Assembly (NCBI RefSeq): GCF_000332315.1
Contig: NZ_KB235937.1
Location: 132,588 to 196,587 of the forward strand
DNA length: 64,000 bases
Direction: 5' to 3'
Source of the DNA: Prochlorothrix hollandica PCC 9006 = CALU 1027
GTDB lineage: Bacteria; Cyanobacteriota; Cyanobacteriia; Prochlorotrichales; Prochlorotrichaceae
Position 1 is the stretch's first letter, and each line of letters opens with the position of its first letter. The position numbers and the translations under genes were made by a program. This document shows positions 4,790 through 64,000 of this stretch, in pieces. A model generated the notes under the pieces. That model had not been told where the DNA came from. It saw only the letters and a list, made by a program, of their open reading frames with translations, and searched no databases.

Positions 4790-7018
4790 CTAGGGGGCAA
4801 CCGGGGGGCGATCGGTACAGTGGTAGAGGCGGGACCAATAGCCCGGAGCCTCGGGATGGTCTTCGGTGCTGTAATGACAGCCCAAGGGTTCCACATCTTG
4901 GCGAGCTGCCGAAAAATTAAGAACCCACAGGGAGAGGGGGCGAGGGGCTTGGGCTAGGAAACGGTGGAGGGCTTGGGTGCCTTCTTCGCGATCGTGATCC
5001 CAATGGGCGAGGAAAAACTGGGGCGGTTGGGGGGGCAGTGGGGAGGAATCGAGGCGGGGGACAGCGTCATAAGCCTGGTGCAACTGCCACCCTAAACTGA
5101 GGAGTTGACCCGTTTCCCCGGTGGTGTGGTGCAGAAAGACCATGGCAACGGGAGCCTGCCCCCAGTCCCCTGGCCAATCCCCCTGCCATGCCTGGATTAA
5201 GCGCTGTACCATGACATCGGCTTGTTCGGTTTTTTGGTATAGCCCGTTATGGACCACGCTCCCACTCCCCAGGAGTCCCAAGGCCAGGATCAACACCACG
5301 CCCCACCGCTGTCCCTGGAGTTTTAGGGATCCCTTAAGTAAACCTGCCCCCCCCCGATCCCAGCCGGGAGCCAGTCCCCAGGCCACCGCCAGCAGCACCG
5401 CCGGCAAGACCACAAATTGATAACGGGGAGCCAGGGTCAGATCCAGTCCCCCGCCATAGACCAGCAGCAGAAAGAGGCTAGCACTGGCCAGGATTTGGCT
5501 GATCAACAGGGATGGAACGGTGAAGGCTGGAACGGTGAAGGCTGGCAGGGATCCCGGCACCAATCCCTGAGGGTTTAAAAACCTAGGCGCTACAAACTTA
5601 GGATCCAGAGGTCCAGAGTTCAGAGATCCAGAGTCCAGGGGTCCAGAGTCCAGGGGTCCAGCATCCAGAGATCCAGCATCCAGAGGTCCAGAGTCCAGAG
5701 ATCCAGCATCCAGAGATCCAGAGTCGAGAGATCCAGCATCCAGAGATCCAGAGTCCAGAGATCCAGAGTCCAGAGATCCAGAGTCCAGAGGTCCAGCATC
5801 CAGAGACTCTGGAGCAGCGGATCTGATCGCCGGGGATTGCGGAAGGGTAGCAACCTGAGACCCTCGATCGGGGTGTGACCGGGCAAACCCCAGGGTGAAG
5901 GCTAGATAGGTGATGCCCAGCAGCATCAGGGCGATCGCCCCCCCTTGCCAGCCCCAGGGCAGATCCGCTTCCAGGGGTGCCCCCATGACCATGGTGATCA
6001 ACCAGGCCAATAAGCGCCCCACCGGTTCCAGGACCCACAGCACCTGTTGCCCCAACCCCGATGCCTCTGTCCAGGACGATCGCGCCAGCCATTGGGTTAA
6101 ACCACTATCGCTAGGGGTGGAGGGCAAACGGGTCGCCAGACCTTGCCACAGCTTGAGTCCAATACTGGCAGTGATTCCCGTGGCTGCTGCCACCCCATAG
6201 AGCCGTTGCCACGATCGCGATCGTGCCTGGGACCGGGACATCCACCACACTCGCCCCAAGGCCACTGCCGCCGCCGCCAAGGCCAAACCATAGAAAAAAT
6301 GGGTGGCCAACCCCAAGCCGTTCAGAACAATCCAGGCCAAGATCTGGGACAGGGACAGGGGAACGTGGGTTTGAATCGATCGGACCCCCCGCCCAACAAA
6401 CCACAGCAGCAGCAAAATCCAGATCACACTCAAGGTGTAGTGGCGGGCTTCTTGGGCCAAATAGACCCCAAAGGGAGAGACGGCCATCAAGGCCGCGCTG
6501 AGGTGGGCTAGGGTTAAACGATGGGGGGAAGAACGACCCAGGCTGTGGGCCACCCCAAAGCTGAGGGGAATGGCCACCACCCCCAACAGGGCACTGAGGG
6601 CACGGCCCCCCACCAGGGAAACCCAGCCGTCCGAGGCGGGCCAGAGATGGAGCCACTGCTGGGTTAGTAAAAAGTAAAGGGGCGGATGGTTGCTTTCCGC
6701 CAGCAAGCGAGCCACCACGGATCCCGGTGTCCACAGACCGGGATAGCGCAGCGGCTGCAAGAGGGTATCCAGATCCATCAGGGTATCGACGGGAATCCCT
6801 TGATAGCCCTGACCCAGGCTAAACAACAGGGTGCTCCACTCATCAGCCCAGGGAGGTTTCAGTCCCAGGTTCCAAAACCGCAGCACCGCCCCCAACAGTG
6901 TCCACAACAACAGTGTCCACAACCCCAGACCCCCTAGCAGCCGCCTCCGGTGAACCGGAGATCCCTGGGGCGGTGGGACAGACCCCTCTGGGGTATGGGT
7001 CCAAGGGAGGGGTGCCAT
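4790..7018 (-). CDS. GT39-like integral membrane glycosyltransferase
   Basis: This 742-aa multi-spanning membrane protein looks like an ArnT/PMT (GT-C, family 39) glycosyltransferase, which moves a sugar from a polyprenyl-phosphate donor on the outer face of the membrane. An acidic pair lies in the first loop after TM1 ([12 protein letters not shown], near residue 55), followed by a conserved-looking [11 protein letters not shown] motif and then many hydrophobic segments. Unusually, a loop at about residues 400-470 is made almost entirely of [SP]LD[SA]G pentapeptides encoded by a 15-bp tandem array. The donor and acceptor cannot be told. It lies 4 bp downstream of pheA, and its tail overlaps only the optional uvrC extension. 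Confidence 0.8.
5608..5810 (-). repeat. In-frame 15-bp tandem array inside the glycosyltransferase gene
   Basis: About 13 units of a 15-bp repeat (variants of AGAGATCCAGAGTCC on the plus strand) encode (S/P)LD(S/A)G pentapeptides. Units differ by single bases, and the reading frame is kept throughout. The copy number probably varies between strains. Confidence 0.95.
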
Positions 7019-7967: not shown

Positions 7968-8630
7968 CTACAACAGGGGCAATTGCTGGGATCGGCAGGG
8001 GGCAAAGGAGCGGCGGTGGCAAGGGGAAACCCCCAGGCGCTGTAGGGCCGATCGGTGTTGGGCCGTACCATAGCCCTTGTGTTGGGCTATGCCATAGCCG
8101 GGATAACGACTATCCAGGCGCACCATTAGATCATCCCGCCACACCTTGGCCACCACACTGGCGGCAGCAATGGCAAGGCAGTGGCGATCGCCCTGGATAA
8201 TCGCCCGCTGCGGGAGGCTTAACCCCGGAATCAACTGGTTACCATCAATCCAACACCACTGGGGCACCGGTTGCAACTTGGCAATGGCCCGGTGCATGGC
8301 CAAAAGGGAGGCTTGGAGAATATTAAGGCGATCGATTTCCGCCACGGAAGCCAACCCCAATTGACAATCCCAGGCCACAGATCGGATATGGCCCACCAGA
8401 CCCTGCCGTTGGCGGGGGGACAATTGCTTACTATCCCGCAAGCCAGCCCCCTGCAAGTCCCGGTTCTCCCCAGGGGGCAGAATCACCGCTGCGGCCACCA
8501 CCGGCCCACACAGCGCCCCCCGCCCCACCTCATCCACCCCCGCCACCCCTAGGCCGCGATCGACGGCAAACCCTAGGGGATCGGGGGGAATGTGGCGGTG
8601 AGGAGATCCGGGCTGCTTCCTAATCCCCAT
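7968..8630 (-). CDS. rnhB: Ribonuclease HII
   Basis: RNase HII nicks RNA-DNA hybrids and removes single ribonucleotides from DNA. The 220-aa protein has the acidic active-site motifs [14 protein letters not shown] (D and E), [17 protein letters not shown] and [13 protein letters not shown]. The [16 protein letters not shown] segment is the usual type-2 signature. The ATG at 8630 overlaps the end of rne by 11 bp, suggesting translational coupling. The rne-rnhB order is common in cyanobacteria. Confidence 0.95.
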
Positions 8631-10860
8631 CCCCAGAGGTAGCCGAAGAGCGGCGACGACGACGACGGTTTTCCGCTTGGGGCTTGGGTTTCGGTAAACT
8701 ACTCTCCTTGGGCACAGGGGTCTCTTTCAGGGAACCACTGTCCGTTAGGGAACCACTACCCCGAGGCTCCACTCGCGGCAGGATCAGGGGAGCGCTGGTG
8801 GGAGTGCCCACAGGCAAGGGGTTCAGGGCCGCCGTAATTTTAGGAATGGACGGTTGTTGGGTCGGTCGTGGGGTCGATCGGGACGGGACTTCCGCTGCCC
8901 GTGGCTCCGGGGCTGACCACGCACCCGCCATCATCGCCGCCGCCACCGTGGGAGACAGGCTAGGAGGCTCAGATCCGGTCTCAGAACCCTGGGATGGCTC
9001 ACTGGGATAGCGGGGGTCAAAGGTGTCCGACGGCAGATCTGTGGCCCCTGGATCCACCTCGTTGGGGGACTTAATCTGAATCACCACATTCCGGGGATTG
9101 TCCACGGACTGACCCGATAGAACCAAGGGCGAAATTCCCATCCAGGAATAAACCTCCTGCTCTGGTTCGGTCATGGCCACGGTGATCACTTCCGGAGGCT
9201 TACCCGGCACCCGTCCCCCCCGGCGGGCACCAAAACGGGGAGTCTCATTGGCACTGCCATACTCAGGGCGCAGGGGACGACGACTCTCGGAGCCATTGCC
9301 CAAAATCGGTGGGGCGATGGGAGCCGGCAGGTCTGGGGTAGTATCCAACGTCAGGGTGGAGCTACTGTCCCCATCCCCCTCGGTTCCCTCATTACCATTG
9401 CGTCGCCGCCGCCGCCGACTGCCCCCATCGCCATAATCCCCATCAGGGGTCTCAGACAGATCACGGCTCTCCCGACTGTCTGGCTCCGCCACCACGCGGC
9501 GCTCTGGCCACGAGGGCTTGGGTGGCTCAGGGGCAACATCGGGGAGCACCGGTGTGCGGGAGGGGACATCGGGCAGTGTCGTCCGGGGGCGCACCTCAAT
9601 CTCAGCGCTGAGATCCAGCTCTGGATCCCCCGGCAGGTGGATCGTGTGGCCGAGTCCCCCGCAGGTGGGGCAATGGCGACCAAAGATCTCGTAAATATTT
9701 TGGCCTTGGCGTTTGCGGGTCAGCTCCACCAGGCCCAACTCCGACAATTGGGCAATTTGGGGGCGGGCCTTATCGGCCTTGAGGGCTTCCTCAAAATGCT
9801 TCAGCACCTGCAACTGATCGCGGCGGGCATCCATATCAATGAAGTCCACCACGATCACCCCGGCCAAATTCCGCAAGCGCAATTGCCGTGCAATTTCCGT
9901 AGCCGCCTCAAAGTTGGTCCACAATACGGTTTCGCGGGCCGTGGACGATCGGGTAAACGATCCCGAGTTCACATCCACCACCGTCAAGGCTTCCGTCGGC
10001 TCAATGATAATGTAGCCCCCCGATGGCAAATCAACGCGGGGCTTGAGGGCTTCGCGAATGGCCGCATTGACCCGGAAATACTCCATGATTGAGGTGCGTT
10101 CCCGGTGCTGATCAATGAGCAAACCCAGGGGAATCCGCCCTGAACCCCAGTTCATCAAATGCTGTTTAACCCGCTTCAGACCGGCGACGGAGTCCACGAC
10201 AATGCGATTGACATCGGCATTATAAACATCCCGCAAAACCCGCTGGATAAAGTCGTCATCCCGGTTCATCAAGGCAGGGGCGCGGGTGTTGACCTGTTCC
10301 TGCTGCACCGTTTCCCACTGGCCTTGGAGGAATTCCAAATCCTCAATAATGGCTTCTTCCGCTACCCCTTCCGCTTCGGTGCGCACCAATAGCCCCATCC
10401 CGGCGGGCTTGACTAAAATGGCTAAGGCCCGCAGGCGACTGCGTTCATTTTCGCTGGAAATCCGCCGGGATAGATTCACCCCCCGCCGGAATGGCATTAA
10501 GACCAAGTAACGACCGGGCAAGGTGATATTACCCGTTAACCGAGGACCCTTATTGCCCGTCGGTTCCTTCATCACCTGCACCAACACTTGCTGCTGCGGC
10601 TCTAGGAGATCGGTGATGGCTCCGGCACTACGGCGCAAGCGCAGAGGTCCCAGGTCACTGACATGAATGAAACCGTTGCGATCGCTATCCCCAATATTGA
10701 CAAAGGCAGCATCAATACCCGGTAAAACATTCTCCACAACCCCCAAGTAAATATCCCCAATCTGATGGGTTCCTTGGGCAACAACCAACTCTTCGATTTG
10801 GTCTTCAGCAAAAACGGCGGCAATACGCTGTTGCTCGGCGATAATAATTTGTTTTGGCAT
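8620..10860 (-). CDS. rne: Ribonuclease E/G family endoribonuclease
   Basis: This 746-aa protein starts mRNA decay and processes rRNA. In order there is an S1-like RNA-binding region ([24 protein letters not shown]), the 5'-sensor/RNase H-like lobe, the catalytic aspartates ([11 protein letters not shown] and VVDFIDMD) and the zinc-link CPTCGGLG (near residue 410). The C-terminal half is low-complexity and acidic/proline-rich, ending [15 protein letters not shown]. The run of six arginines plus SSA is the cyanobacterial nonapeptide reported to bind polynucleotide phosphorylase. An internal RRRRRRNGN patch near residue 500 may be a second basic RNA-binding site. The upstream region carries a family-B element. 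Confidence 0.97.
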
Positions 10861-10901
10861 TCAAGTTCCTCAAATTGCTGTAGCGCTGAGGGGAGACTGT
10901 T

Positions 10902-10982
10902 GGGTATCAACTTAAGCCGGGATAGTGAGGCACGGAGCGCCCCACTGTCCCGTTAATCTTGTCCCGCTTTAAGCGGTAGCCC
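10902..10982 (+). repeat. Family-B element, copy B1 (81 bp, 8-bp target duplication)
   Basis: This copy defines family B well. GGGTATCAACTTAAGCC opens it and GCTTTAAGCGGTAGCCC closes it. It is flanked on both sides by AGACTGTT (10894-10901 and 10983-10990). It lies in the presumed rne leader. Confidence 0.9.
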
Positions 10983-11067
10983 AGACTGTTGACATTCTGA
11001 GATTTCCTGCGACCTCATCCCTCGACGGTTTTAAAAGACGGTGGTGGACGTTAGAGACACAGACAGA

Positions 11068-11170
11068 TACAGCACTCCTAAATCAGTTGTAAGGATCTCG
11101 ATAGCTGAAACCCTTGGTGTGGTGTGCCCCCTCCGGGGGCACACCACACGACCCATTTAGGACTGCTGTA
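11068..11170 (-). repeat. Family-A element, copy A2 (103 bp)
   Basis: Opposite orientation to A1. Ends are TACAGCACTCCTAAAT and ATTTAGGACTGCTGTA, with a GC-rich central palindrome. Confidence 0.9.
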
Positions 11171-11181
11171 GTGGTGTTGAG

Positions 11182-14243: not shown

Positions 14244-14342
14244 GGGCACCTCAAAAAATCCAAATTTTCGCTCCGTGACTCAGGTAAGAATCAGGGTTGT
14301 GGCGGGCGGCTAAGCCGCCCAACCCAATTAACCGAGGTGCCC
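14244..14342 (+). repeat. Family-C element, copy C2 (99 bp, TGTA duplication)
   Basis: GGGCACCTC opens it and GAGGTGCCC closes it. The 4-bp TGTA occurs just before (14240-14243, the last bases of A3) and just after (14343-14346). C2 therefore inserted at the end of A3, or next to it. The inner GGCGGCTAAGCCGCC hairpin is intact. Confidence 0.9.
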
Positions 14343-14346
14343 TGTA

Positions 14347-14802: not shown

Positions 14803-14905
14803 TACAGCAACCCTAAATCAGTTGTAAGGATCTCGAAGGCTGAAACCCTTGGTGTGGTGTGCCCCCTCCGGGGGCACACCACACGACCCATTTAGGACTG
14901 CTGTA
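14803..14905 (-). repeat. Family-A element, copy A4 (103 bp)
   Basis: TACAGCAACCCTAAAT to ATTTAGGACTGCTGTA. A perfect GTGTGGTGTGCCCCC/GGGGGCACACCACAC core palindrome is present. Confidence 0.95.
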
Positions 14906-15054
14906 TGTGGACAATGTAAGTCTAACGGTCTGAGGCTCACCGGACAACAGTTCGCTTTGCAGCACCACCGATGCTTTGCAGCACAACCGATAGAGTAATG
15001 ATCCCTTGCAAGTAACGAGGTTTAAGGGTTTCAGGAGATCTGCCAGTCAACCAG

Positions 15055-16293: not shown

Positions 16294-16343
16294 GGTGTAT
16301 CAACTTAAGCCGGGACGGTGGGAAGCAGAACGATGGGACGGTC
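16294..16343 (+). repeat. Partial family-B element between the two permease genes
   Basis: GTATCAACTTAAGCCGGGACGGTGG matches the left half of family B. The right half is degenerate. Confidence 0.6.
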
Positions 16344-17654: not shown

Positions 17655-17838
17655 GGCTATCAACATTAAGCCGGGATAGTGGAGTACTGAACACCCCACT
17701 GTCCCGTTAATTTCGTCCCGCTGTACAGCAACCCTAAATCAGTTGCAAGGATCTCGACGACTGAAACCCTTTGGGTGGTGTGCGCCTGGAGGGCGCACAC
17801 CAAACGACCTATTTAGGATGGCTGTAGGCGGAAAACCC
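17655..17838 (+). repeat. Family-B element B3 interrupted by family-A element A5
   Basis: The B left part (GGCTATCAACATTAAGCC...TCCCGCTG) ends at TA. A complete A element follows (17724-17826), then the B right part (GGCGGAAAACCC). Removing A5 leaves about 81-83 bp, the normal B length. A therefore inserted into B at a TA dinucleotide. Confidence 0.85.
17724..17826 (-). repeat. Family-A element, copy A5, nested in B3 (103 bp)
   Basis: TACAGCAACCCTAAAT to ATTTAGGATGGCTGTA, with the central GTGTGCGCC/GGCGCACAC palindrome. Confidence 0.9.
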
Positions 17839-18952: not shown

Positions 18953-20101
18953 AGAAATAGATCCGAATAAAACTGATACTCATTACGTCAGGCTAAAATG
19001 CCCGAATTCAGGCTTTTTGAATCCTAACACACTGCTAGAAACCTGAAAACCTCAACTTCAGAGGCTTTAATCCTATTAAAGGACTATTACAGCCCCTGAA
19101 GTGATTGTCTAACCGTTTAAAGATCCTTGGGATTAACGGGTCTCATCAAAAATTTGGGTAGAAACCCCGTGCTGAACCACGGCTTTACACAGAACCCTTG
19201 CGGGCACTGGTTTTTAATTGCCGATAAGGCCGAGAACCAGCAAACTCGTTTAAGTCCCCTCCCACAACACAGCTAAGATGGCTTGTCTTACAACGCCTTA
19301 CCAATAAGGCTTAGAGGGAATCCGGACTAGGGAAGTATCCGGAGGTCTGTGCCAAGTTGTGTCTCAGTGTGGTAGTCACTACTTACGTTGCCTAAATTGG
19401 TTTAGGCAAGCTCCATCCTTTAGGGCGGAGTTAGTGACCCTAGATTTAATGTCGCCACTAGAATTTATCCCTGCCCTAGGCTCTAGGCTCCTAGGCTCTA
19501 TCCTTCAACCTTTACGAATCTTAAAAGATGGTGCTCTCAGAAAATGTAGCGAATAGATCAAAATGGACAGCTTCCGCTGAGGGACAAAAGGGATACCCTT
19601 AGCCAGGGTTAGCGCGATGGAAAGATGCCTAGGTTAGAGCTAAATGGGTTCAATAGAGACGAAAATTTATAGCAGACTCAAACACGAAAAACTAGGCTTG
19701 TCGCTTAAAGCGGGACCAGATTAACGGGACAGTGGGGCATTTTCGTACTCCACTATCCCGGATTAAGTTGACACCCAAAAACTATAAAGATGCAACGCTC
19801 AGCAGACCGGGCGAAATAAAAAATAACCTAGTTTGAGAAGGGCTGAAGCTCTGTAACCGTCCCAGAGACTCCGATCGAGGTTGATAGGGAACGAGTTTAA
19901 AGGGTTTCAGCTATGTCAGGCTGAAACGATTAATCTTCATTAAATACCGGTGACAGTTACGTTCGTAATAACGACTTCAGTCGTTCCCCTCTAGGAAGCT
20001 ATGGACCTGAGCGACTGAAGTCGCTACTACAAACCTGAGCGACTGAAGTCGCTACCCCCTCGACGGGCCAGGATCGATTTTCTCACTGGAACTGAGGTTG
20101 T
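18953..20101. other. 1.15-kb gene-free stretch with hairpins
   Basis: No gene is supported. The stretch contains a TTGCCTAAA-TTGG-TTTAGGCAA perfect hairpin (19388-19409), followed at once by a CTCCATCC...GGGCGGAG imperfect hairpin of IS200/IS605 style. It also contains a family-B copy (about 19698-19776) and two direct copies of CCTGAGCGACTGAAGTCGCT near 20006 and 20034. Confidence 0.5.
19698..19776 (-). repeat. Family-B element, copy B4
   Basis: Reverse orientation: CGCTTAAAGCGGGACCAGATTAACGGGACAGTGGGG-type left part, and CTATCCCGGATTAAGTTGACACCC at the other end. The central palindrome is diverged. Confidence 0.8.
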
Positions 20102-20469: not shown

Positions 20470-20811
20470 TTAGGGTTGCTCCGGGGACGAGGGGGCTTCG
20501 TCTGGGGTTACGGTGGCATCCTCTTCGAGTTCTGTGGCTAACTCCTGTTGCCAATTTCCCTGGGCTGCGGCTTCAATGCGACGGTAGTCCGCCAGGATAA
20601 AGACATAGCACCCATGACTGACAAGGCCCAAGAGCCAAACCCCGGAGACGATGGAGAGGTTGTCCCAGGGATGATTCAGAAGCTGGAAAAACCACAGCCC
20701 GGAGTTTACGGCTAAATAAATAGCGGCATGGAGGGCAAAGTTAATAAAATCTTCCAGGCGGCGAAAGGCCGGATCATTGCGATCGGGGGTACGAGGCCAA
20801 CGGGGAGGCAT
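20470..20811 (-). CDS. 2TM domain-containing membrane protein
   Basis: This 113-aa protein has two closely spaced hydrophobic helices (about 25-45 and 55-75) with the pattern RRLEDFINFALHAAIYLAVNSGLWFFQLL...WLLGLVSHGCYVF. That is the 2TM domain found in many cyanobacterial small membrane proteins. An acidic, proline-rich tail (ATELEEDATVTPDEAPSSPEQP) follows. The role is unknown. The start is the ATG at 20811. A 16-bp tandem array lies immediately upstream. Confidence 0.8.
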   Translation of the reverse strand: MPPRWPRTPDRNDPAFRRLEDFINFALHAAIYLAVNSGLWFFQLLNHPWDNLSIVSGVWLLGLVSHGCYVFILADYRRIEAAAQGNWQQELATELEEDATVTPDEAPSSPEQP

Positions 20812-20822
20812 AAATTTGAACT

Positions 20823-20955
20823 ACTACAGGGTTGGATGACTACAGAGTTGGACTACTACAGAGTTGAGCGGCTACAGAGTTAAGCGGCTACAGAGTTAAG
20901 CAGCTACAGAGTTAAGCGGCTACAGAGTTAAGCGGCTACAGAGTTAAACGACGAC
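20823..20955. repeat. 16-bp tandem array upstream of the 2TM gene
   Basis: About eight units of AGCGGCTACAGAGTTA with decreasing identity towards the gene. It occupies the expected promoter/leader of the 2TM-DUF3181 pair. Confidence 0.9.
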
Positions 20956-21130
20956 AGAGCATTACCATTTTGCCAAACTATGGCCAACCCCGTAGGGAGA
21001 TTTTGCGGAGGGGAAGGGAGAGTTTCACTCAAATAATGCTGTTGGTCGATGGCGATCGCTAGCATCTGTTGGCCTGGGTCATGATGCCTCATCCCATTGG
21101 CTGGACCCTCTCGAACGTTGAGATGGGATT

Positions 21131-22988: not shown

Positions 22989-24461
22989 CTAGACATGACC
23001 CGTCCGTTTCCAGTTAAAAAACCAACGCAACGCCATTTCTTGACGGGGGTGGCGCTGGAATTGGAGGTGCTGCCACTGCTGCTGCCAATCGGTCAACACC
23101 GCAAAACTCCAGGGATCTGCGGCCTGGGTGAGCAAGGCGGGGAGGGGGGTTCCCTGGGCGATCGCCCCCGTCATCAGGGCCAATAAGGGCACTAGATCAC
23201 GACCACAGCCGTGAAATCCCACAATTTTGCCCCGCCGGTTAAGAATCACCTTGGCCATCTGGGGCAGGCCCGTTAGGGGATCCTGGCAGTGGGCCATGAG
23301 GCTGGTCATGGGTCCCAGGGATCTGTAGCGCTGGCTTTGGGGTTCCGTCAGGCCCACCCGCACCAGGGGCAGGGGCAGGGGCAAGGTATAGGGAAGATGG
23401 GCATAATCCATGGGGCGATGGCTTTGGTTCAGGGCATGATCGAGGGCGATCGCCCCTTCCTGCACCGCCAACAGGGGCAAATCATAGCCCCCCAACCGGG
23501 CACCACAGGCGTAAATCTGGGGGTGGGGCGTTTGTAAATAGCCGTTGACGGGAATGGGGCTGTGACTCCCCCGTTGGATCCAAGGCTGGAGGCGATCGGG
23601 GGTTCGATCGCCCTGACCATAGATATCGGGACTCACCACGGTAGCACTGGCCACGGTAGCACTCGCCACGGTAGCACTCGCCACGGTAGCACTCGCCCCA
23701 GTAGCACTCGCCACGGCAGACCCATCTAGCCACAGCGCTTGGGCAATGGGGGATTGCTGTTGCCCCACCACCCTCACCCCCTGGGGATGGCTCTCCACCC
23801 GTAGGGCTGGGTTGCCTGTTATGACCCTGATCCCTTGGGCCTCCCAGTGGTGTTGGTAATGGGCACTAATGTCGGGATCTTCCTGGGGGAGAAGATGGGT
23901 CGTGGCCACCGTCAGAGTCACCTGACAACCCCAGCCCTGAAGGCAGGCAGCCCAGGCCAACGTTTGGGGAGAAGATCCCACCATAATCCAAGACTGGGGC
24001 AAGTCAGGGGGGGGATCCTGGAGCAGCCCCTGGGCTGTAAAGGGGGAAACGGTCTCCAAGCCAGGGAGGGCTGGAATCTGGGGGATTGAACCCAGGGCCA
24101 AGAGATAGCGCCGCGATCGCAGCAGCCGTTGTCCCACCCTCAACCCTAAGGGGGAATTGCCGTGAAATTCCAGGGTCTCTGTCCGGCGATCGACAGCGAT
24201 GACATCAATGCCCGTCAAGGCCAAGGTGTCTGCCCCCAGGGGGTCAGCCAGCCGGAGCCGGTCCAGGTGCTGCGATCGCCACTGCACCCAGGATTGTCCC
24301 CCCCAGGGCAAAGGCCAAGGGAACCCCCCGGTATCCAGTGCCGGGGATGCCTCATCGGTGGGGAAGACCCAGGCAACCCTGGCCAGCCAGTGCCCAGCCC
24401 GCAGTGCTGCCTGGTGGGCCGCTAGGGTTGCCCCCACCACCACCACGTCATAGTCATACAT
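22989..24461 (-). CDS. FAD/NAD(P)-dependent oxidoreductase (disulfide-reductase fold, no redox cysteines)
   Basis: This 490-aa flavoprotein resembles pyridine-nucleotide disulfide oxidoreductases. It has an N-terminal FAD-binding strand (YDVVVVGATLAAHQAALRA), a second dinucleotide fold (SWIMVGSSPQTLAWAACLQGWGCQVTLTV) and the FAD-contacting IYACGARLGGYDLPLLAVQEG. The C-terminal dimerisation-type region includes VRVGLTEPQ and KVILNRRGKIVGFHGCG. The CxxxxC pair expected near residue 45 is absent, so it is not a classical disulfide reductase. A 15-bp array inserts (ASATV)n after residue 240. The position just upstream of cobK suggests co-expression, but a cobalamin role is only inference. Confidence 0.75.
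   Translation of the reverse strand: MYDYDVVVVGATLAAHQAALRAGHWLARVAWVFPTDEASPALDTGGFPWPLPWGGQSWVQWRSQHLDRLRLADPLGADTLALTGIDVIAVDRRTETLEFHGNSPLGLRVGQRLLRSRRYLLALGSIPQIPALPGLETVSPFTAQGLLQDPPPDLPQSWIMVGSSPQTLAWAACLQGWGCQVTLTVATTHLLPQEDPDISAHYQHHWEAQGIRVITGNPALRVESHPQGVRVVGQQQSPIAQALWLDGSAVASATGASATVASATVASATVASATVVSPDIYGQGDRTPDRLQPWIQRGSHSPIPVNGYLQTPHPQIYACGARLGGYDLPLLAVQEGAIALDHALNQSHRPMDYAHLPYTLPLPLPLVRVGLTEPQSQRYRSLGPMTSLMAHCQDPLTGLPQMAKVILNRRGKIVGFHGCGRDLVPLLALMTGAIAQGTPLPALLTQAADPWSFAVLTDWQQQWQHLQFQRHPRQEMALRWFFNWKRTGHV
23636..23715 (-). repeat. In-frame 15-bp tandem array in the oxidoreductase gene
   Basis: Five units of CACGGTAGCACTCGC (plus strand) encode repeated ASATV pentapeptides, in a loop between conserved blocks. 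Confidence 0.95.
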
Positions 24462-24489: not shown

Positions 24490-24570
24490 GGGCTACCCAC
24501 TTAAGGCGAAAACGTGGGGCGCTCCGCGCCCCCAGATCCCATTAATCCTGTCCCGTTTTAAGGAGAAGCC
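24490..24570 (+). repeat. Family-B element, copy B5 (diverged, 81 bp)
   Basis: The CTTAAGGCG start, TGGGGCGCTCCGCGCCCCC core, and ATTAATCCTGTCCCGTTTTAAGG right part fit family B with several changes. Confidence 0.75.
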
Positions 24571-24609
24571 CCGATATTGAGGGCGAGGGAGCATCCCAGT
24601 TTGGCAACT

Positions 24610-24765: not shown

Positions 24766-26811
24766 TTAAGTGACCGATTGCATGGCTGCATCCAGAACCA
24801 CCTGCTGGAACTGAATCACATCCCGGCGGGGATCGACATGGCTCACCCGCAGATGAATTTGATCCCCCAGGCGCACCGTGCGGTCAAAGCGAGTCGCCAA
24901 CTCTAAGCCCAAATCCTCCAACAGAATCAGCGCCAGGTTTTCATGCTCCCGCAGCCACCGCAGCACCAAGGCAGGCCACACCTGATTGCCCTGACGACGG
25001 AGATATTCCAGCCCCCAATAGCGGTTGGTTTGGCGCTCCACCAGGGTGGCCTCATAGGAGGTGCTGCTGGCACTGACCAGCAATTCCTGCATTTTTTCCG
25101 GGGTAAAGGGCAGACTGTCACCCCGCAGGTGAGCCTTAATTTGGAAATGGGCCAGAAAATCACTATAGCGACGGATGGGGGAAGTCACCTGGGTGTAGGT
25201 GGCCAGCCCCAAACTGGCATGGCGGGCGGGGGTGAGGCTCACCTCACTGCGGGGCATACAGCGACGAATGGCACAGTCCCGCACCGGACCGGGGGGCAGT
25301 AAAGCCAACTCGTCATCCGGGGGCAGTTCCGGCTGGGGCTGATGGCGGAAGGGCAAGGCCAAGTCATGGGTTTGGCCATAGTGCCCCGCCACTTCTCCGG
25401 CCAAAATCATCATTTCTGCCACCAACTGCCGGGAAGCCGACTCCTCCAGCACATCGATGGTGATTTCCTCGGCATCGGACACCTTAATGGAGGCTTCCGG
25501 CATCCGAATGGTGATCGATCCCTGGGACTCTCGCCATTGTTGGCGACGGACGGCCCATTTATGCAAGGTGCCTAGCTCGGCCTCGGCTTGAATCCCCAAC
25601 TCCAGCATTTCATCCACATCCTCATAGGTAAGGCGATAGGTGGGCTGAACTGTACTGGGGACAATGCAATAGTCCTCGACGGCACCGCTGTCGGTCAGAA
25701 TGACCCCAAAGCTGAGGGCACCACAGCGTTTACCCTGAATCAAGCTCATGGGTCCGGTGGCCAGATCCTTAGGGAACATGGGCACCATGCCGGTGGGCAA
25801 ATAGAGGGTCGTGCTGCGACGGCGAGCCTCCAGATCTAAGGCATCTTCAGGGGAAACCCAACGGGTGGGGTCAGCAATGTGGATCCACAAACGTTCTTGA
25901 CCGGAGTCTAAGACCTCCACGCTTAAACCATCGTCAATTTCCTGGGTGCTCTCATCGTCAATGGTGTAGGTCTTGAGGTGGCTGAGGTCCCGCCGATCGC
26001 CATCGGGATCAACGGGGGGATTCTGCAACAAGGAGTGGGTCACATCGAGCACCTTTTGGGCAAAGTGGATGGAAATTTGACTGCGGCGCAGAAATAAGTT
26101 CTCATGAACATCCCAGAGTCCCAGATCGATCAACAGTTGCAAGGCCGCTTCTGGGGTATCCGATCGCTGCAAGGATGTCAGCAATTCGCTAGCCGGTGCC
26201 CGGTGCTTAGCCTCCGCGCCAAAGGTGGCCAAGTTCTCTAAGGAGTCCAACCAAGGACGATCGTCGTCATCCCAGGCGGGGCGATCGGTTCCCGGCTGGG
26301 GATCCGCTGTCCAAGCCATGGCTTGGGCGACCCGTTGGGTAAAGACCTGCCACTGCACCTGGCGCTGGGTTTCCACCTCCTGTTGATGCCTGAGTTCGGT
26401 CACCTGGGCCAGGGATCGGGGTTCGTAGCTATCTTTGCGTTGCTTAAAGTAGAGCTTATCTTCCGATAGTAAATAGTGGGCTGCATAACAATGCTCCGGT
26501 TCCTGGGCGGAGAACAACAGCAACGCTAAGTCTAAAGGCGTTGTCGGTGTCCCCTCTTCCACCAGAAATTCCCAGGCCACTTCCAAGGCAGACTCATCTA
26601 AATAGGGTTCCAGGGCTGCCCGAAACTTAGCAATCTGCTCCGGGCGATAGCTCTGGCCCTGTACTTCATAGGCAATTTGACGGGGGTGTAAGGTGTGAGA
26701 CTGTCCCCGCTCATCGATCGCAATCCAATGTTTTTTACCCTCAGGACGATCCAAGACCGCAAGCCGTCGATCGGCTCCCTGGCGAAACTCAATCAGGGTT
26801 CCCTTATCCAC
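24766..26811 (-). CDS. RNase II/RNase R family 3'-5' exoribonuclease
   Basis: This protein of about 680 aa has a central RNB catalytic domain. The acidic cluster TIDDESTQEIDDGLSVE (near residue 290) should hold the metal-binding aspartates, followed by HIADPTRWVSPEDALDLEARRRSTTLYLP and the late TQVTSPIRRYSDFLAHFQIKAHLRG motif. The C-terminus has a short S1/OB-like strand set. The N-terminal part (TLIEFRQG...AVLDRPEGKKHWIAIDERG) replaces the cold-shock domains of enterobacterial RNase II/R and is typical of cyanobacteria. It should degrade structured or unstructured RNA from the 3' end. The GTG at 26811 gives the conserved start. A TTG at 26859 is also in frame. Confidence 0.88.
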   Translation of the reverse strand: MDKGTLIEFRQGADRRLAVLDRPEGKKHWIAIDERGQSHTLHPRQIAYEVQGQSYRPEQIAKFRAALEPYLDESALEVAWEFLVEEGTPTTPLDLALLLFSAQEPEHCYAAHYLLSEDKLYFKQRKDSYEPRSLAQVTELRHQQEVETQRQVQWQVFTQRVAQAMAWTADPQPGTDRPAWDDDDRPWLDSLENLATFGAEAKHRAPASELLTSLQRSDTPEAALQLLIDLGLWDVHENLFLRRSQISIHFAQKVLDVTHSLLQNPPVDPDGDRRDLSHLKTYTIDDESTQEIDDGLSVEVLDSGQERLWIHIADPTRWVSPEDALDLEARRRSTTLYLPTGMVPMFPKDLATGPMSLIQGKRCGALSFGVILTDSGAVEDYCIVPSTVQPTYRLTYEDVDEMLELGIQAEAELGTLHKWAVRRQQWRESQGSITIRMPEASIKVSDAEEITIDVLEESASRQLVAEMMILAGEVAGHYGQTHDLALPFRHQPQPELPPDDELALLPPGPVRDCAIRRCMPRSEVSLTPARHASLGLATYTQVTSPIRRYSDFLAHFQIKAHLRGDSLPFTPEKMQELLVSASSTSYEATLVERQTNRYWGLEYLRRQGNQVWPALVLRWLREHENLALILLEDLGLELATRFDRTVRLGDQIHLRVSHVDPRRDVIQFQQVVLDAAMQSVT

Positions 26812-26997
26812 CCGCCGTGACTCAACTTTTTTTACAAAACCACCAGTAGTCTCCCCCAAACCATCCCCAGGCTTACCACAGTACGGAGTTCGCCTTGACG
26901 GTTGGGTGGGGTTCCCAGGAACTGATCAGCCCCGAACCCGCAACCTCCACCCTGCCAGGATGACCGTTGGGGTTCTGGAGTAATTCAGGGAATTTCT

Positions 26998-27165
26998 CTA
27001 GAAAAACCAGACCTAGAAAAACCAGACCCAGAAGAACCAGACCTAGAAAAACGGGTATCAACTTAAGCCGGGACAGTGGGGCGCTCCGCGCCCCACTGTC
27101 CCGTTAATCTTGTCCCGCTTTAAGCGGGAACCCGAAAAACCAGACCCAGAAAAACCAGAAGAAAG
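26998..27165. repeat. 16-bp tandem array split by family-B element B6
   Basis: Units such as CCTAGAAAAACCAGAC run from 26998 to 27052 and resume at 27134-27165. B6 sits between them. Removing B6 plus one GAAAAAC restores an uninterrupted unit. Confidence 0.9.
27053..27133 (+). repeat. Family-B element, copy B6 (81 bp)
   Basis: This is a near-consensus B: GGGTATCAACTTAAGCC start, TGGGGCGCTCCGCGCCCCA core and GCTTTAAGCGGGAACCC end. The target duplication is GAAAAAC (7 bp clear). Confidence 0.95.
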
Positions 27166-32998: not shown

Positions 32999-33079
32999 GG
33001 CTTACCGCTTACAGCAAGACAAGACTAACGGGACAGTGGGGCACGGATCGCCCCACTGTCCCGGATTAAGTTGATACCC
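32999..33079 (-). repeat. Family-B element, copy B7 (81 bp), supplies a stop codon
   Basis: Flanks ACGATGAA (32991-32998) and AAGATGAA (33080-33087) match at 7 of 8 positions. The right end GTTGATACCC, read on the minus strand, gives the last three codons and the TAA of the alpha/beta hydrolase. Confidence 0.88.
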
Positions 33080-34040
33080 AAGATGAACCCATAACCACCG
33101 TCTGGAGCCAGTCTAAAACCCAAGTGTTGACCCGATCGGGACACTCATCTTGTAAACAATGGCCTGCCCCGTCCACCATGATCAATTGCAGGCGGGGGTT
33201 TAAAGCTCCACAACGGGCCGCTAATAGGGGAGGCACCAGACGATCAGCCTGACCCCACAGCAACAAGAGGGGCACCTGTAACTGGGGCAACACCTGCTTG
33301 GCGCGATAGGGCGGGGGAACCTGGGCCATCCCACGGCTGATAAACCGTAACGCTTGGGCAGCATGGCGATCGCGGGCCGGTGCCGACACCATCTGCTGCA
33401 ACCCCTCATCCACCACCGCCGTCTCCCCATAGGCACTGGCCAAGGCAGGGTAAAGAATACGGGGCGATCGCACCAACGCCAACAGTGGGTTAATCAACCA
33501 TGGCCCGGTGAGCGCCAGTTGCATAGCCTGACCCAAGGGTCGCCCCCAACGCTGCAAACCCCGCATCAGTTTGGTGACCATTACTGGTAAATCCGGCAAC
33601 AGCACCGAGTTATCGGGCAAATTCACCCAAACTAATCCCCTGACCATGGCCGGAGCCTGAACCGCCACCGTCATCGCCACCACCGAACCCAGGGAATTGC
33701 CCACCAGCACCACCGGCTCCCCCACAAAGGTACGCCAAAAGTCTTGCACCATCTCTCCCCAGAACACTGGGCTATAGGGGGCCGCAGCCTTTTGGGATGC
33801 CCCAAACCCCAACAAGTCCAAGGCATAAACCGTGGTGTATTGACCCCAGACCGGGAGGTTCTGTCGCCAATGATAGGAACTCGCCCCAAACCCATGGAGA
33901 CAGATCAAGGGAGGGTAAAGCGGGGACCCCGATTCCGGGGGGCGATCGGGACTGAGGGTGCAGTAGGACACCTGCCATCCCCGCCAATACCAGTCCCGCA
34001 TCTGGGGCATCATCGGGGAAGAGGGGGGTAATGCAGTCAT
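33066..34040 (-). CDS. Alpha/beta hydrolase
   Basis: This 324-aa alpha/beta-hydrolase fold protein has the oxyanion motif CLHGFGASSYHW and the nucleophile elbow VLVGNSLGSVVAM (Ser near residue 118). The acid is in LLWGQADRLVP and the catalytic histidine in DGAGHCLQDE. It resembles the plastid/cyanobacterial group of esterase-like hydrolases, and the substrate cannot be inferred. The start is the ATG at 34040. Its last residues (VST) and stop codon are encoded by repeat B7, so the native C-terminus has been replaced or trimmed. Confidence 0.85.
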   Translation of the reverse strand: MTALPPSSPMMPQMRDWYWRGWQVSYCTLSPDRPPESGSPLYPPLICLHGFGASSYHWRQNLPVWGQYTTVYALDLLGFGASQKAAAPYSPVFWGEMVQDFWRTFVGEPVVLVGNSLGSVVAMTVAVQAPAMVRGLVWVNLPDNSVLLPDLPVMVTKLMRGLQRWGRPLGQAMQLALTGPWLINPLLALVRSPRILYPALASAYGETAVVDEGLQQMVSAPARDRHAAQALRFISRGMAQVPPPYRAKQVLPQLQVPLLLLWGQADRLVPPLLAARCGALNPRLQLIMVDGAGHCLQDECPDRVNTWVLDWLQTVVMGSSWVST

Positions 34041-34255
34041 AGGGAAAAACTAAGTCCTAGCAGGAGAGGGACAGGGGGGCACATGTCAGGGTTGGGGGGG
34101 TGCATCGTAGGGGCGAAGCATGGGCGGCAAAACTTGGGGCGATCACCCAGAGAATACCTGCGCCCATGCTTCGCCCGTACCCAAAATGGGGGCATTGACC
34201 TCCCCTGATTTCAATCCGATCCTGCCCCCCCAATGACGAGATGCGCCCGGGACAG

Positions 34256-34334
34256 GGTTCCCGCTTCAAGCGGGACAAGATTAATGGAATAGTGGGGCGC
34301 GGAGCGCCCCACTGTCCCGGCTTAAGTGGATACC
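34256..34334 (-). repeat. Family-B element, copy B8
   Basis: GGGTTCCCGCTTCAAGCGGGACAAG-type end on the left and GGCTTAAGTGGATACCC on the right. Flanks end in CCGGGACA and GAGGGACA, an imperfect 8-bp duplication. Confidence 0.85.
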
Positions 34335-34346
34335 CGAGGGACAGGT

Positions 34347-34444
34347 CTATTTTAAGTTCCGTTTTAAGTTCCGTTTTAAGTTCCGTTTTAAGTTCCGTTT
34401 TAAGTTCCGTTTTAAATTCCGTTTTAAATTCCGTTTTAAATTCC
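34347..34444. repeat. 12-bp tandem array (GTTTTAAGTTCC)
   Basis: About eight units occur before C3, and 1-2 more after it (34544-34561). Confidence 0.95.
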
Positions 34445-34543
34445 GGGCACCTCGAAAAATCCAAATTCTCGCCCCTGTGCCAACGCAAGAATAGGGGTTG
34501 TGGCGGGCGGCGAAGCCGCCCAACCCAATTAATCGAGGTGCCC
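34445..34543 (+). repeat. Family-C element, copy C3 (99 bp, TTCC duplication)
   Basis: Perfect terminal repeats GGGCACCTCG...CGAGGTGCCC. TTCC lies directly on each side (34441-34444 and 34544-34547). It is inserted within the 12-bp array. Same length as C2. Confidence 0.95.
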
Positions 34544-34927
34544 TTCCGTTTTAAATTCCGTAACAATTCTGAGGGGAACGGGGAAAAATGATGGGCTAGA
34601 TGGCTGAAATAGGGCAAGATTAACCTTAAGGTAACCTTGACTGGGCTGATCCATGGCCTAAGTTAAGAATCCGGGGAGAACTACTCCAGGCGGGGCTACC
34701 CTTCACCCCGCCCCACATCTAGACAGTAGACCTGATGGCACCCCCCAGGCAACAGAGGCATACCCCTAGGGCGGCAAACAGTCTAATCATGGAAAACAAC
34801 CCAGAATTTGGGTTTAAAGCGATCATTAGGCTGGTATTAGACCGATCGAAATCATAGCTCCTACGGTAGCTTTTTGTAACGATTCGACACCGAGAGTTCT
34901 AGCCCCCAACCCTTACCTCCCTGGTCC

Positions 34928-35714: not shown

Positions 35715-36082
35715 GGCTTACCGCTTACAGCGGGACAAGATTAACGGGACAGTGGTAATTATTCAGGGGTCCACAGGAGAATGAGGGTTTCAGGCTCTAG
35801 ACAACAGACCTTAGGCGATGTGAGAGGGGCCATTTCACTGGGGTGGGTTCACCGATTTTGGTAGGGGCAATCCCCCCGTGGTTGCCCCGGTTGTGGGTCG
35901 CCAAGAGGGTCGGCACGGGGGCGAGAACCCTACCCGAGGTCAATTGTTCCAAGGTGAAATGCACCCCGTTGATCCGGCTCTGACCGGAGATCGTGGGGCT
36001 GAAACCCGACTCATTTCCCCCTGAATAGTTACGGGACAGTGGGGCGCTCCGCGCCCCGCTGTCCCGGATTAAGTTGATACCC
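35715..36082 (-). repeat. Family-B element B9 interrupted by a 276-bp element
   Basis: The B halves are 35715-35755 and 36032-36082. Removing the 276-bp insert and one copy of its 11-bp duplication leaves exactly 81 bp. Confidence 0.92.
35756..36031. mobile_element. 276-bp non-autonomous element nested in B9 (11-bp target duplication)
   Basis: The ends are TAATTATTCAGGGG and CCCCTGAATAGTTA, matching at 13 of 14 positions when inverted. CGGGACAGTGG is duplicated at 35745-35755 and 36032-36042. Homology of the ends continues to a GGGTTTCAG/CTGAAACCC pair. There is no coding capacity. The 11-bp duplication would suit IS4-type transposases, which is inference only. Confidence 0.9.
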
Positions 36083-36089: not shown

Positions 36090-36156
36090 GGACTAGAACA
36101 CACAAAACCAGAACACACAAAACTAGAACACACAAAACCAGAACACACAAAACCAA
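36090..36156. repeat. 15-bp tandem array (AGAACACACAAAACC) abutting the glgB 3' end
   Basis: Four units end a few bases from the glgB stop codon. Confidence 0.95.
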
Positions 36157-36161
36157 GTCCT

Positions 36162-38507
36162 TTAGTCTTGGCCATAGGGTTGACGATCGCGATCTAAGCG
36201 AAACATCAACACCCCTAACGGGGGCAAACATAAATCCAAAGAATAGGGGTGATTGTGGAACGGCCATTCCTCCGCCCATTTGCCCCCCAAATTGCCCATA
36301 TTACTGCCCCCATATTCCCGCGCATCACTGTTAAACAGTTCCGTATAAAAGCCAAATTCCGGAACTCCAATGCGGTAGTGGGCATGGGGCTGGGGCGTAA
36401 AGTTACAAACCACCACCCCAAAGTCCTGGGGATCGGCCCCCCGCCGGAGAAACGAAATGACACTGTGGCGGTTGTCACTACAATCAATCCAGTCAAACCC
36501 CGATTCCTGGAAATCCTGGCTATACAGGGCCGGTTGACTGCGGTACAGGTGATTCAGATCCTGAAGAAAACGTTTCAACTGGTGATGTAAGGGATCCTTA
36601 AGAAGCTGTTGATTTAAATCCCCCCAGACATTCCACTCTTCCCACTGCCCCAGTTCCAGGCCCATAAATAGGGTTTTTTTGCCGGGGTGGGCATACATAA
36701 ACCCACAAAGGCAGCGAACATTGGCGAACTTCTGCCACTCATCACCGGGCATCTTACTCAGGATCGACCCTTGGCCCCGCACCACATCATCGTGGGATAA
36801 CACCAACATAAAGTTCTCGCTGTGGTGATACCACATGGGGAAGGTGACGTTGTTGTGGTGGAATTGGCGCAGGCCCGGTTCCATGGTGAAATAATCCAAC
36901 ACATCATGGGTCCAGCCTAAATTCCATTTGGCATTAAAGCCTAACCCCCCCACATAGGTGGGCCAGGAAACCATGGGCCAGACCGTGGATTCTTCCGCGA
37001 TCGACAAAATCCCAGGAAACTGGCTAAACAACACCTGGTTCAGTTGCCGCAGAAAATCGGCAGCCTCAATATTTTCCCGGCCCCCATACTGGTTGGTGAC
37101 CCATTCCCCAGCCTTGCGACCATAATCTAAGTACAACATGGAAGCCACAGCATCGACGCGAATACCATCAATGTGGTATTTGTCGAACCAAAAGAGGGCA
37201 TTGGCAATCAGAAAATTACGCACTTCCGGACGATCGTAATCAAACACCAAGGTGCCCCACTCCGGCTGTTGCCCTTTGCGGGGATCTGCATATTCATAGA
37301 GGGGCGTGCCATCAAAATCCCCTAAGCCATGTTCATCCTTGGCAAAGTGCCCCGGCACCCAGTCCAAAATAACCCCCAATCCCTGGTGGTGGCACTGATC
37401 AATGAAATACATTAACCCTTCTGGATCCCCAAACCGAGACGTGGGGGCATAGTAGCCCGTGACTTGGTAGCCCCAAGACCCGTCAAAGGGGTGTTCCGCT
37501 AAGGGCAGAAGTTCCACATGGGTATACCCCAGTTCCAGCACATAGGGAATGAGGGAATGGGCCAATTCCCGATAGGACAAGAAACGGGATCGGGGTTGGT
37601 AGCCGGAAATGGGAACGGGGACGAAGGGGATAGGGGTAGACCTATCCGAGGGCAGAAGCGGGGGATCCTCCGTGGCGGTATGTCGCCAGGATCCCAGGTG
37701 AACCTCGTAGATGGCAATGGGCTGGCTGAGGGGATCCCGTTGCCCCCGTTGCTGGAGCCAGTCCCCATCCTGCCAGGTGTAGCGATCGAGATCCGTAACA
37801 ATGGAAGCGGTGCGAGGGCGAACTTCGTGGTAAAAACCAACGGGGTCAGACTTTTGATAGATCTGCCCCTGGGCGGTTTGCACCTCATATTGGTAGCGAT
37901 CGCCCAGATCACAGCCGGGAATAAAGAGGATCCAAATGCCTGCCGCCGTGGGCTGCATCTGATGCTGTCGCCCCTGCCACTGGTTCACATCGCCAATGAT
38001 GGAAACCCCCAGGGCGGCGGGTGCCCACAGGGCAAAGTAAACTCCAGCAATCCCCTCCAGCGTTAAGGGATGGGCACCCAGCTTGTCATAGAGACGCAGA
38101 TGCTTCCCCGCCTGAAATAAGGTTCGATCGTCATCCGTCCAATAATCAGACCGAAAGCCATAGGGATCATAAAAGATCTGCTGTTGCCCGGTGGCAGTTT
38201 CCAGGCGCAATTGATAGGGACGACCAGAACGACCGAGTTCAGCGGCGATCGGCCCCTCGAAAAAATGGGGATGGTGGCGAGGAGTGAGGGGATAGTCTTC
38301 GCCATCATCCCCAGTCACAACCCCCACGGCCACGGCCTGGGGCAGATAGGTGCGCACCACCCAACCCTCTCCCCCCGATCCTGCCAATGCCACCTCCGAT
38401 GCCGATCCAGATGCCAATAGCCGATGGCAACCCAGGAGGGAAAAGGGATCAGGATGGCGATTTTGAACGACTAATTCAACCTGTTCAGGGGAAAGGCTGG
38501 GTATCAT
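36162..38507 (-). CDS. glgB: 1,4-alpha-glucan branching enzyme
   Basis: This 781-aa GH13 enzyme makes alpha-1,6 branches in glycogen. In order it has two beta-sandwich N-terminal modules (HPDPFSLLGCH at the start, VYFALWAPAALGVSIIGDVNQW near 155) and the barrel with GVILDWVPGHFAKDEHGL. The nucleophile is in IDGIRVDAVASMLYLDY and the acid/base in ILSIAEEST. The fourth region is LSHDDVVRGQGSILSKMPGD, where the usual sequence is HDEVVHGK. The catalytic Asp after His is kept, but the next Glu is Asp and His is Arg. An all-beta C-terminal domain follows. The variant motif suggests one of the divergent cyanobacterial branching-enzyme paralogues. Confidence 0.95.
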   Translation of the reverse strand: MIPSLSPEQVELVVQNRHPDPFSLLGCHRLLASGSASEVALAGSGGEGWVVRTYLPQAVAVGVVTGDDGEDYPLTPRHHPHFFEGPIAAELGRSGRPYQLRLETATGQQQIFYDPYGFRSDYWTDDDRTLFQAGKHLRLYDKLGAHPLTLEGIAGVYFALWAPAALGVSIIGDVNQWQGRQHQMQPTAAGIWILFIPGCDLGDRYQYEVQTAQGQIYQKSDPVGFYHEVRPRTASIVTDLDRYTWQDGDWLQQRGQRDPLSQPIAIYEVHLGSWRHTATEDPPLLPSDRSTPIPFVPVPISGYQPRSRFLSYRELAHSLIPYVLELGYTHVELLPLAEHPFDGSWGYQVTGYYAPTSRFGDPEGLMYFIDQCHHQGLGVILDWVPGHFAKDEHGLGDFDGTPLYEYADPRKGQQPEWGTLVFDYDRPEVRNFLIANALFWFDKYHIDGIRVDAVASMLYLDYGRKAGEWVTNQYGGRENIEAADFLRQLNQVLFSQFPGILSIAEESTVWPMVSWPTYVGGLGFNAKWNLGWTHDVLDYFTMEPGLRQFHHNNVTFPMWYHHSENFMLVLSHDDVVRGQGSILSKMPGDEWQKFANVRCLCGFMYAHPGKKTLFMGLELGQWEEWNVWGDLNQQLLKDPLHHQLKRFLQDLNHLYRSQPALYSQDFQESGFDWIDCSDNRHSVISFLRRGADPQDFGVVVCNFTPQPHAHYRIGVPEFGFYTELFNSDAREYGGSNMGNLGGKWAEEWPFHNHPYSLDLCLPPLGVLMFRLDRDRQPYGQD

Positions 38508-43427: not shown

Positions 43428-43654
43428 GGCTATCAACTTAGGCCGCGATAGTTTAGGCCGCAATAGTTTAGGCCAGAATAGTTTAGGCCGCAATATAGCA
43501 ACCCTAAATCAGTTGTAAGGATCTCGACGGCTGAAACCCTTGGTGTGGTGTGCCCCCTCCGGGGGCACACCACACGACCCATTTAGGACTGCTGTAGTGG
43601 GGCACGGAGCACCCCACTGTTCCGTTAATCTGGTCCCGCTTTCAGCGGTAAGCC
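43428..43654 (+). repeat. Family-B element B12 with internal amplification and nested A6
   Basis: The B left end (GGCTATCAACTTAGGCC) is followed by about four tandem copies of the B segment TTAGGCCGCAATAGT. The last copy is interrupted at ATA|GT by A6 (43494-43596). The right part of B resumes with GTGGGGCACGGAGCACCCCAC and ends GGTAAGCC. Confidence 0.85.
43494..43596 (-). repeat. Family-A element, copy A6, nested in B12 (103 bp)
   Basis: TATAGCAACCCTAAAT (one change from consensus) to ATTTAGGACTGCTGTA. Confidence 0.9.
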
Positions 43655-43957: not shown

Positions 43958-44428
43958 CTAATAGCGGTAGTGGGCGAAGGCTTTGTTGGCTTCCGCCATG
44001 CGGTGGGTTTCTTCCCGACGGCGCACAGCATTACCGGTTTCATTGGCGGCATCCATCAACTCATTGGCCAGTTTGATGGTCATGGATTTACCGGAGCGTT
44101 CACGGGAAAAGCGCACGAGCCAGCGCAGGGCTAGGGCAGTGCCGCGATCGGCGCGAACTTCCATGGGAACCTGATAGGTGGCACCCCCAACACGGCGAGC
44201 ACGAACTTCCACCAGGGGCGTGGCATTACGCACTGCTTTTTCAAATAATTCAACCGGTTCTGAGCCGGTACGCTCTTCAATGGTCTTGAAGGCGTTGTAC
44301 AACATACCAGAAGCCAAGGAACGCTTGCCACTTTGCATCAAGCGAGCCACCATCATGCTGACAAGGCGACTGTTGTAAACAGAATCGGGGGTAACGTTTC
44401 TCTTCTGAGCGCGATTACGACGAGACAT
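43958..44428 (-). CDS. rpsG: 30S ribosomal protein S7
   Basis: This 156-aa S7 begins [23 protein letters not shown] and ends [18 protein letters not shown]. It organises the 3' domain of 16S rRNA and is usually the autoregulator of the str operon. It lies 254 bp downstream of rpsL, with B10 in between. Confidence 0.99.
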
Positions 44429-44475: not shown

Positions 44476-44556
44476 GGGTATCAACCTAAGCCGGGGCTGG
44501 GGGGCGCTCCGCGCCCCCCAGTCCCGTTAATCTTGTCCCGCTTTAAGCGGGAACCC
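44476..44556 (+). repeat. Family-B element, copy B10 (81 bp, perfect 8-bp duplication)
   Basis: GAATAGGG lies directly on both sides (44468-44475 and 44557-44564). GGGTATCAACCTAAGCC start and GCTTTAAGCGGGAACCC end. It lies inside the rpsL-rpsG spacer. Confidence 0.95.
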
Positions 44557-48441: not shown

Positions 48442-48544
48442 TACAGCAATCCTAAATCAGTTTTAAGGATCTCGATGGCTGAAACCCTCTGTGTGGTGTG
48501 CGCCCTCCGGGCGCACACCACGCAACCCATTTGGGACTGCTGTA
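48442..48544 (-). repeat. Family-A element, copy A8 (103 bp)
   Basis: TACAGCAATCCTAAAT to CATTTGGGACTGCTGTA, with GTGTGGTGTGCGCCC/GGGCGCACACCAC core. Confidence 0.92.
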
Positions 48545-48795
48545 GATCTGTAGTTATAGATCTGTAGTTCCTGAAAATCTGGCTAGGTCTAAGATCAAGA
48601 CCATGGGGTTTGCCCAGGGGTGGCCTTGTTGTCATCCACCAACTCTAGGCTTCTTCCCAAAGCAGAGAGATTGACCCCACAGCGGAAGGCTATCCCTCCT
48701 GTTGGCAGAGGTCTCATCGTTCCTGGGGTGGTATGGGTTAGGGTCTCCCAATCCTACTGCCTGCCCTCTACGCCGTCTTAACTGCGAAAATCGCA

Positions 48796-49368: not shown

Positions 49369-49471
49369 TACAGCAACCCTAAATCAGTTGTAAGGATCTC
49401 GACGGCTGAAACCCTTGGTGTGGTGTGCCCCCTCCGGGGGCACACCACACGACCCATTTAGGACTGCTGTA
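49369..49471 (-). repeat. Family-A element, copy A9 (103 bp), upstream of tgt
   Basis: TACAGCAACCCTAAAT to ATTTAGGACTGCTGTA, with the same perfect GC-rich core as A2 and A4. Confidence 0.95.
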
Positions 49472-62885: not shown

Positions 62886-62897
62886 GAACCTGATCGG

Positions 62898-63935: not shown

Positions 63936-64000
63936 TCTGGGGTGATGGCACAATGGGTCAGTGCCACGGCATTGGATAGCAAGATAGGGAGAAGCGCAAC

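Follow-up and report, generated by a model that had tools for sequence, protein, structure and literature searches.

An 81-bp MITE family in Prochlorothrix hollandica that shares its ends with DUF6399 insertion sequences and carries its hairpin loop in both orientations

An 81-bp element upstream of the RNase E/G gene

The window, a 64-kb stretch of the Prochlorothrix hollandica genome, carries an RNase E/G gene (rne; RNase_E_G match) at 8620-10860 on the minus strand and, 42 bp upstream of its start codon, an 81-bp non-coding element (10902-10982), hereafter B1. The preliminary description had reported the same 8-mer on both sides of B1, and we confirmed an exact 8-bp repeat, AGACTGTT, directly adjoining the element. 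B1 could possibly have a regulatory effect on the RNase E/G gene. Other copies of the same family (family B) adjoin genes for RNase II (24766-26859), a DEAD-box helicase (57193-58950) and ribosomal protein S7 (43958-44428). The features of B1 are listed below, the duplications as read from the sequence.

10894-10901: left 8-bp target duplication AGACTGTT of B1
10902-10982, plus strand: family-B MITE copy B1, 81 bp
10902-10925, plus strand: L end of B1; the family consensus GGGTATCAACTTAAGCCGGGACAG matches, at 24 of 24 positions, the end on the 3' side of the transposase gene in DUF6399 insertion sequences (ISs) of other cyanobacteria
10918-10952, plus strand: central hairpin of B1 with a 16-bp stem and a 3-nt loop (GGA in B1)
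10961-10982, plus strand: R end of B1 with a small hairpin; its CTTGTCCCGCTT (starting at 10958) is found again upstream of the DUF6399 remnant of this genome
10983-10990: right 8-bp target duplication AGACTGTT of B1

About a dozen copies had been described in the window, and our search returned 14 family-B matches, approximately 10 of them full-length. Apart from B1, these are the following.

16297-16326, plus strand: fragment (L end)
17655-17734, plus strand: diverged copy
19695-19776, minus strand: copy with an exact 8-bp duplication TAGTTTTT (plus strand AAAAACTA)
24491-24571, plus strand: diverged copy, duplication 6/8
27053-27133, plus strand: copy identical to the consensus, 7-bp duplication GAAAAAC, within a short tandem repeat
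32999-33079, minus strand: copy with a 7/8 duplication (TTCATCTT/TTCATCGT), overlapping the 3' end of the ORF at 33066-34040
34255-34335, minus strand: copy, duplication 6/8
35715-35764, minus strand: fragment (R half)
36024-36082, minus strand: copy truncated beside another repeat end (CGTAACTATTCAGGGGG)
43596-43654, plus strand: fragment without the L end, directly next to a family-A repeat
44476-44556, plus strand: copy B10, exact duplication GAATAGGG, compensatory stem changes
59093-59173, minus strand: copy, duplication 5/8
62896-62931, plus strand: fragment (L end)

The same 8-mer was recovered on both sides of B10, as had been stated for this copy, and the 7/8, imperfect and 7-bp duplications claimed for three others were found in the copies at 32999-33079 (7/8), 34255 (6/8) and 27053 (exact), respectively. 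A second repeat family of ~106 bp, with TACAGCAGTCC and a GGTGTGCCCCCTCCGGGGGCACACC hairpin, has at least nine copies in the window (11068-11173, 14803-14908, 43494-43599, 48442-48547, 49369-49474 and others), some of which are abutted by family-B fragments, and a third family of ~100 bp (GGGCACCTCGAAAAATCC...GGTGCCC) occurs at 1594-1693, 14244-14343 and 34445-34544. Many short tandem arrays with units of 12, 15 or 16 bp were also seen (5555-5851, 20808-20967, 23616-23734, 34331-34450, 36092-36166 and 63859-63956). The sequence CGTAACTATTCAGGGGG (window ~36010-36030; L224; L085 near 5900) directly adjoins truncated family-B copies as well as the DUF6399 remnant described below, and possibly represents the terminus of a further mobile element that inserts into family-B sequences.

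Copy number, target duplications and insertion sites

A family-B profile built from 30 copies was searched in 845 kb, corresponding to 15% of the 5.65-Mb genome, and gave 64 matches compared to none in a Markov-shuffled control, which extrapolates to ~350-430 matches in the whole genome, about 300 being nearly full-length. In a genome search, the 40 of 400 candidates that were scored all aligned over 81 of 81 positions with an identity of at least 94%. Divergence from the consensus ranged from 0 to 24% among unbiased copies, with a median of ~8%; family B has expanded over some time, and a few of its members are near-identical. Among the 66 copies for which both flanks were available, 36 showed an 8-bp duplication with at most one mismatch (exact in 21), compared to a chance rate of ~0.2% when left and right flanks were paired across different copies. 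Flank identity was sharply highest at a length of 8 (73%, versus 41% at 7 and 35% at 9), and a few copies had exact duplications of 6, 7, 11 or 12 bp. These numbers agree with the earlier view of a numerous family with 8-bp duplications. The accompanying claim of recent activity held only in part, given this divergence and the failure to find an intact transposase of the matching type in the assembly.

Sixty of the 64 copies lie outside ORFs of at least 150 aa, such ORFs making up 72.5% of the sequence (p = 5e-29). The relatives searched were kin at class level only, none being of the same genus, family or order. Two sites within the genome itself take the place of orthologous empty sites: taking out the element and one duplication at 27053 restores the phase of the short tandem repeat, and the copy at C5:70837 sits within a member of another repeat family whose other members have no insert. 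The two family-B ends, GGGTATCAACTTAAGCC and GGGTTCCCGCTTAAAGC, both start with GGGT and agree at 11 of 17 positions, i.e., they are imperfect inverted repeats, related in the way the preliminary description had proposed. Altered copies were also observed in this genome, namely a 109-bp rearranged copy with an exact duplication AGCCAGAG (L222) and a 65-bp copy that has lost the greater part of its hairpin and shows a 7/8 duplication (L223).

DUF6399 insertion sequences with the same ends

The search for a transposase gene bounded by the same ends, which had been suggested beforehand, was successful in other cyanobacteria and not in this genome. An exact scan of the 24-bp left end GGGTATCAACTTAAGCCGGGAYAG over 84,980 prokaryote genomes (257 Gb) returned 18 places, in cyanobacterial records only (Leptolyngbyaceae, Nodosilinea, Shackletoniella and a cyanobacterial MAG). 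At L049, L050 and L055, this end bounds a 1.75-kb IS with a single gene, encoding a ~530-aa DUF6399 protein, and with exact 8-bp duplications (CTCTTTCA, AATTTGGG and TGCTGCCC, respectively); DUF6399 ISs with the close end variant GGGTAACAACTTAAGCCGGGA likewise had exact 8-bp duplications (L107, GATCAGAG; L108, ATTCGAGT). L105 and L106 show the L055 and L049 elements again, respectively, so that five independent DUF6399 ISs were counted. The L end of the MITE corresponds to the IS end on the 3' side of its gene at up to 24 of 24 bases. The R end (CTTAAAGCGGGACAAGA) is similar to the end on the 5' side (L050: CACAAAGCGGGACAAAA), where the L050 IS also has the R-end sequence AAAGCGGGACAA. Compared to known ISs, the R end fits the 5' ends less closely than the L end fits the 3' ends. 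Short elements with the same ends and an exact duplication co-occur with such ISs in the MAG MO_188.B28 (L061, with the L050 IS) and in G268 (L214, with the L105 IS). In Nodosilinea nodulosa (L057), the ORF of an IS1-like transposase starts a short way within an IS end of the DUF6399 type and seems to be nested there.

Each of the seven full-length transposases that we used matched DUF6399 (Pfam PF19936; best E 8e-58), a family to which Pfam assigns unknown function and which is found here within complete ISs with ends and target duplications; our literature search found no paper mentioning DUF6399. A protein search detected relatives in 32 of 291 genomes of the class. Viral contigs yielded neither a relative of the DUF6399 transposase nor one of the L end, and there were no matches in phages and plasmids. 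Candidate catalytic residues D128, D182 and E434 (L055 numbering) are invariant, and an AlphaFold model of the transposase built from three sequences was poor (pLDDT 48). When compared to ISL3, the DUF6399 protein scored below the curated cut-offs, with 15.9 bits against PF01610 (cut-off 23) and 14.8 against NF033550 (cut-off 180), and hhalign against an ISL3 alignment gave an E value of 4e-4 with a probability of 36%. The likeness is local, in the region of the second Asp (VSVADLFH compared to IQVADRFH) and in a VEGxN in the C-terminus, and the sub-threshold Pfam ISL3 match spans the C-terminal Glu. Both groups of ISs have 8-bp duplications and ends starting with GG, whereas the DUF6399 protein has ~530 aa compared to ~390 aa for ISL3, and the end sequence differs. 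On this weak, sub-threshold similarity, the DUF6399 enzyme appears ISL3-like and was not treated as an ISL3 member; most probably, it is a DDE transposase and a remote relation of ISL3, with a putative RNase H-like DDE fold.

In the genome of P. hollandica, the only DUF6399 trace found was a remnant at C4:195886-196071 with a 63-aa N-terminal match. The R-end 12-mer CTTGTCCCGCTT occurs outside MITE copies once in 845 kb, 150 bp upstream of this remnant. An intact DUF6399 gene was found neither in this assembly nor in that of G003, a cyanobacterium of another family with a similar element (see below), both assemblies being fragmented or gapped. Since the assembly has many 100-N gaps, with about 40 gaps in 845 kb, an intact copy could be hidden, and the statement that there is no intact partner speaks of the assembly.

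Loop orientation and the proposed origin of family B

In its folded form (-50.8 kcal/mol, z -8.1), the consensus has a 16-bp stem closed by a 3-nt loop and, in addition, the small R-end hairpin; the 3-nt loop is the most variable site of the family. In an unbiased sample, it read TCC in 17 copies and GGA in 11 (19 and 21, respectively, with added copies). A covariance model of the element, run over 291 genomes, matched in G003 and identified related-end elements in G094, G167 and G268; the other inspected matches were GC-rich hairpins unlike the element, and the two-hairpin MITE was seen in two genomes only. In G003, an element of ~80 bp with the layout of family B was matched at least 40 times, with duplications of at least 7/8 in 12 of 24 examined copies versus 0 of 5,000 null pairings, and its loop read TTC in 14 cases, GAA in 11, and TGC and GCA once each. 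Five stem pairs differ on both sides between the home genome and G003, i.e., in a compensatory manner. Inside the home genome, 92 stem changes were one-sided and 8 two-sided, with 6.2 two-sided changes expected by independence. Loop orientation in the home genome was independent of relatedness (nearest-neighbour agreement 0.45 versus 0.49 expected, p = 0.76), and R-end sites had a strong relatedness signal (p < 0.001). Two founder lineages, one with TCC and one with GGA, were rejected as an explanation because the loop has no phylogenetic signal while other sites have it. Template switching has been documented to invert the loops or spacers of hairpins and to homogenise their arms (PMC8794818, PMC8604942). 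As it gives both loop parity and compensatory stems, these can arise without RNA selection, and loop inversion is best explained by template switching during replication.

We consider family B to be a MITE with a DUF6399 IS partner and a template-switched palindrome loop, and assign this explanation as a whole a probability of about 0.83. The MITE would keep only the two recognition ends of an IS and no coding capacity, the autonomous element being the 1.75-kb IS with its single gene for the ~530-aa DUF6399 protein. This transposase would move family B in trans through a putative DDE chemistry, cutting the target with an 8-bp stagger, and polymerase template switching during replication most likely inverts the loop and keeps the arms matched.

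An alternative explanation is that the autonomous element belongs to another IS family with family-B ends and either lies in the assembly gaps, one of which is entered by an L end (C5:437015), or was lost from the strain. This is very unlikely, as the genome has six L-end sites that are not MITE-like and none of them borders a recognisable transposase gene, so that they were rejected as autonomous copies, and the only autonomous elements found anywhere with these ends are DUF6399 ISs. Two of the L-end sites are the rearranged and shortened MITEs L222 and L223. The genome also contains at least seven intact, identical copies of an ISL3-family IS, which produces 8-bp duplications too (exact GTTTAATC in the one copy analysed). 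Its ends (GGCTCTCTGGGAATGAGGC) are unlike GGGTATCAACTTAAGCC, however, and MITE mobility normally needs matching ends, so that this IS was rejected as the driver and its having moved family B is highly improbable.

The lowest probability falls to the idea that the element serves mainly as a functional RNA or a structural DNA repeat (terminator, REP-like or riboregulator) with a hairpin under selection. Its very stable fold, intergenic placement and compensatory stem changes relative to G003 would suit such a role, and REP/BIME repeats are likewise numerous intergenic GC-rich hairpins; in family B, in contrast, every copy is delimited by two defined ends and comes with an 8-bp duplication of its target, whereas REPs are not known to have target duplications. 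The duplications show transposition, the element matched no Rfam family, stems erode uncompensated within the genome, with two-sided changes close to the number expected by independence, and template switching yields compensatory changes and loop inversion without selection.

With no coding capacity, terminal inverted repeats, target duplications, high copy number and ends common to an autonomous element, family B is firmly supported as a MITE, i.e., an ordinary kind of element, and its interest lies in the DUF6399 link and the apparent loop flipping. Prokaryotic MITEs such as Correia and Nezha of Anabaena are short, non-coding, present in high copy number and moved in trans by an IS transposase (PMC10969869). 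Family B resembles them in its terminal inverted repeats, target duplications, intergenic location and apparent IS dependence, and differs from known MITEs, the Nezha ends not being compared, in its DUF6399 IS partner and its 16-bp palindrome with an apparently freely inverting 3-nt loop. By analogy with parvovirus terminal hairpins, the hairpin might even flip at or near each copying event as part of replication or transposition, which would hold the loop at an orientation equilibrium with continually re-matched arms; we regard this as unlikely, and if it were true, mobile copies would need the palindrome.

Linking these MITEs to DUF6399 would give a Pfam family of unknown function a concrete role, as the enzyme that transposes a group of cyanobacterial ISs. 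The palindromes, near-identical and present by the hundred, each with 3 nt of loop that can be read, would also constitute a natural record of template switching: as the loop occurs both ways near parity in two distant cyanobacteria and is unlinked to descent in the home genome, the rate of hairpin inversion could be directly measurable.
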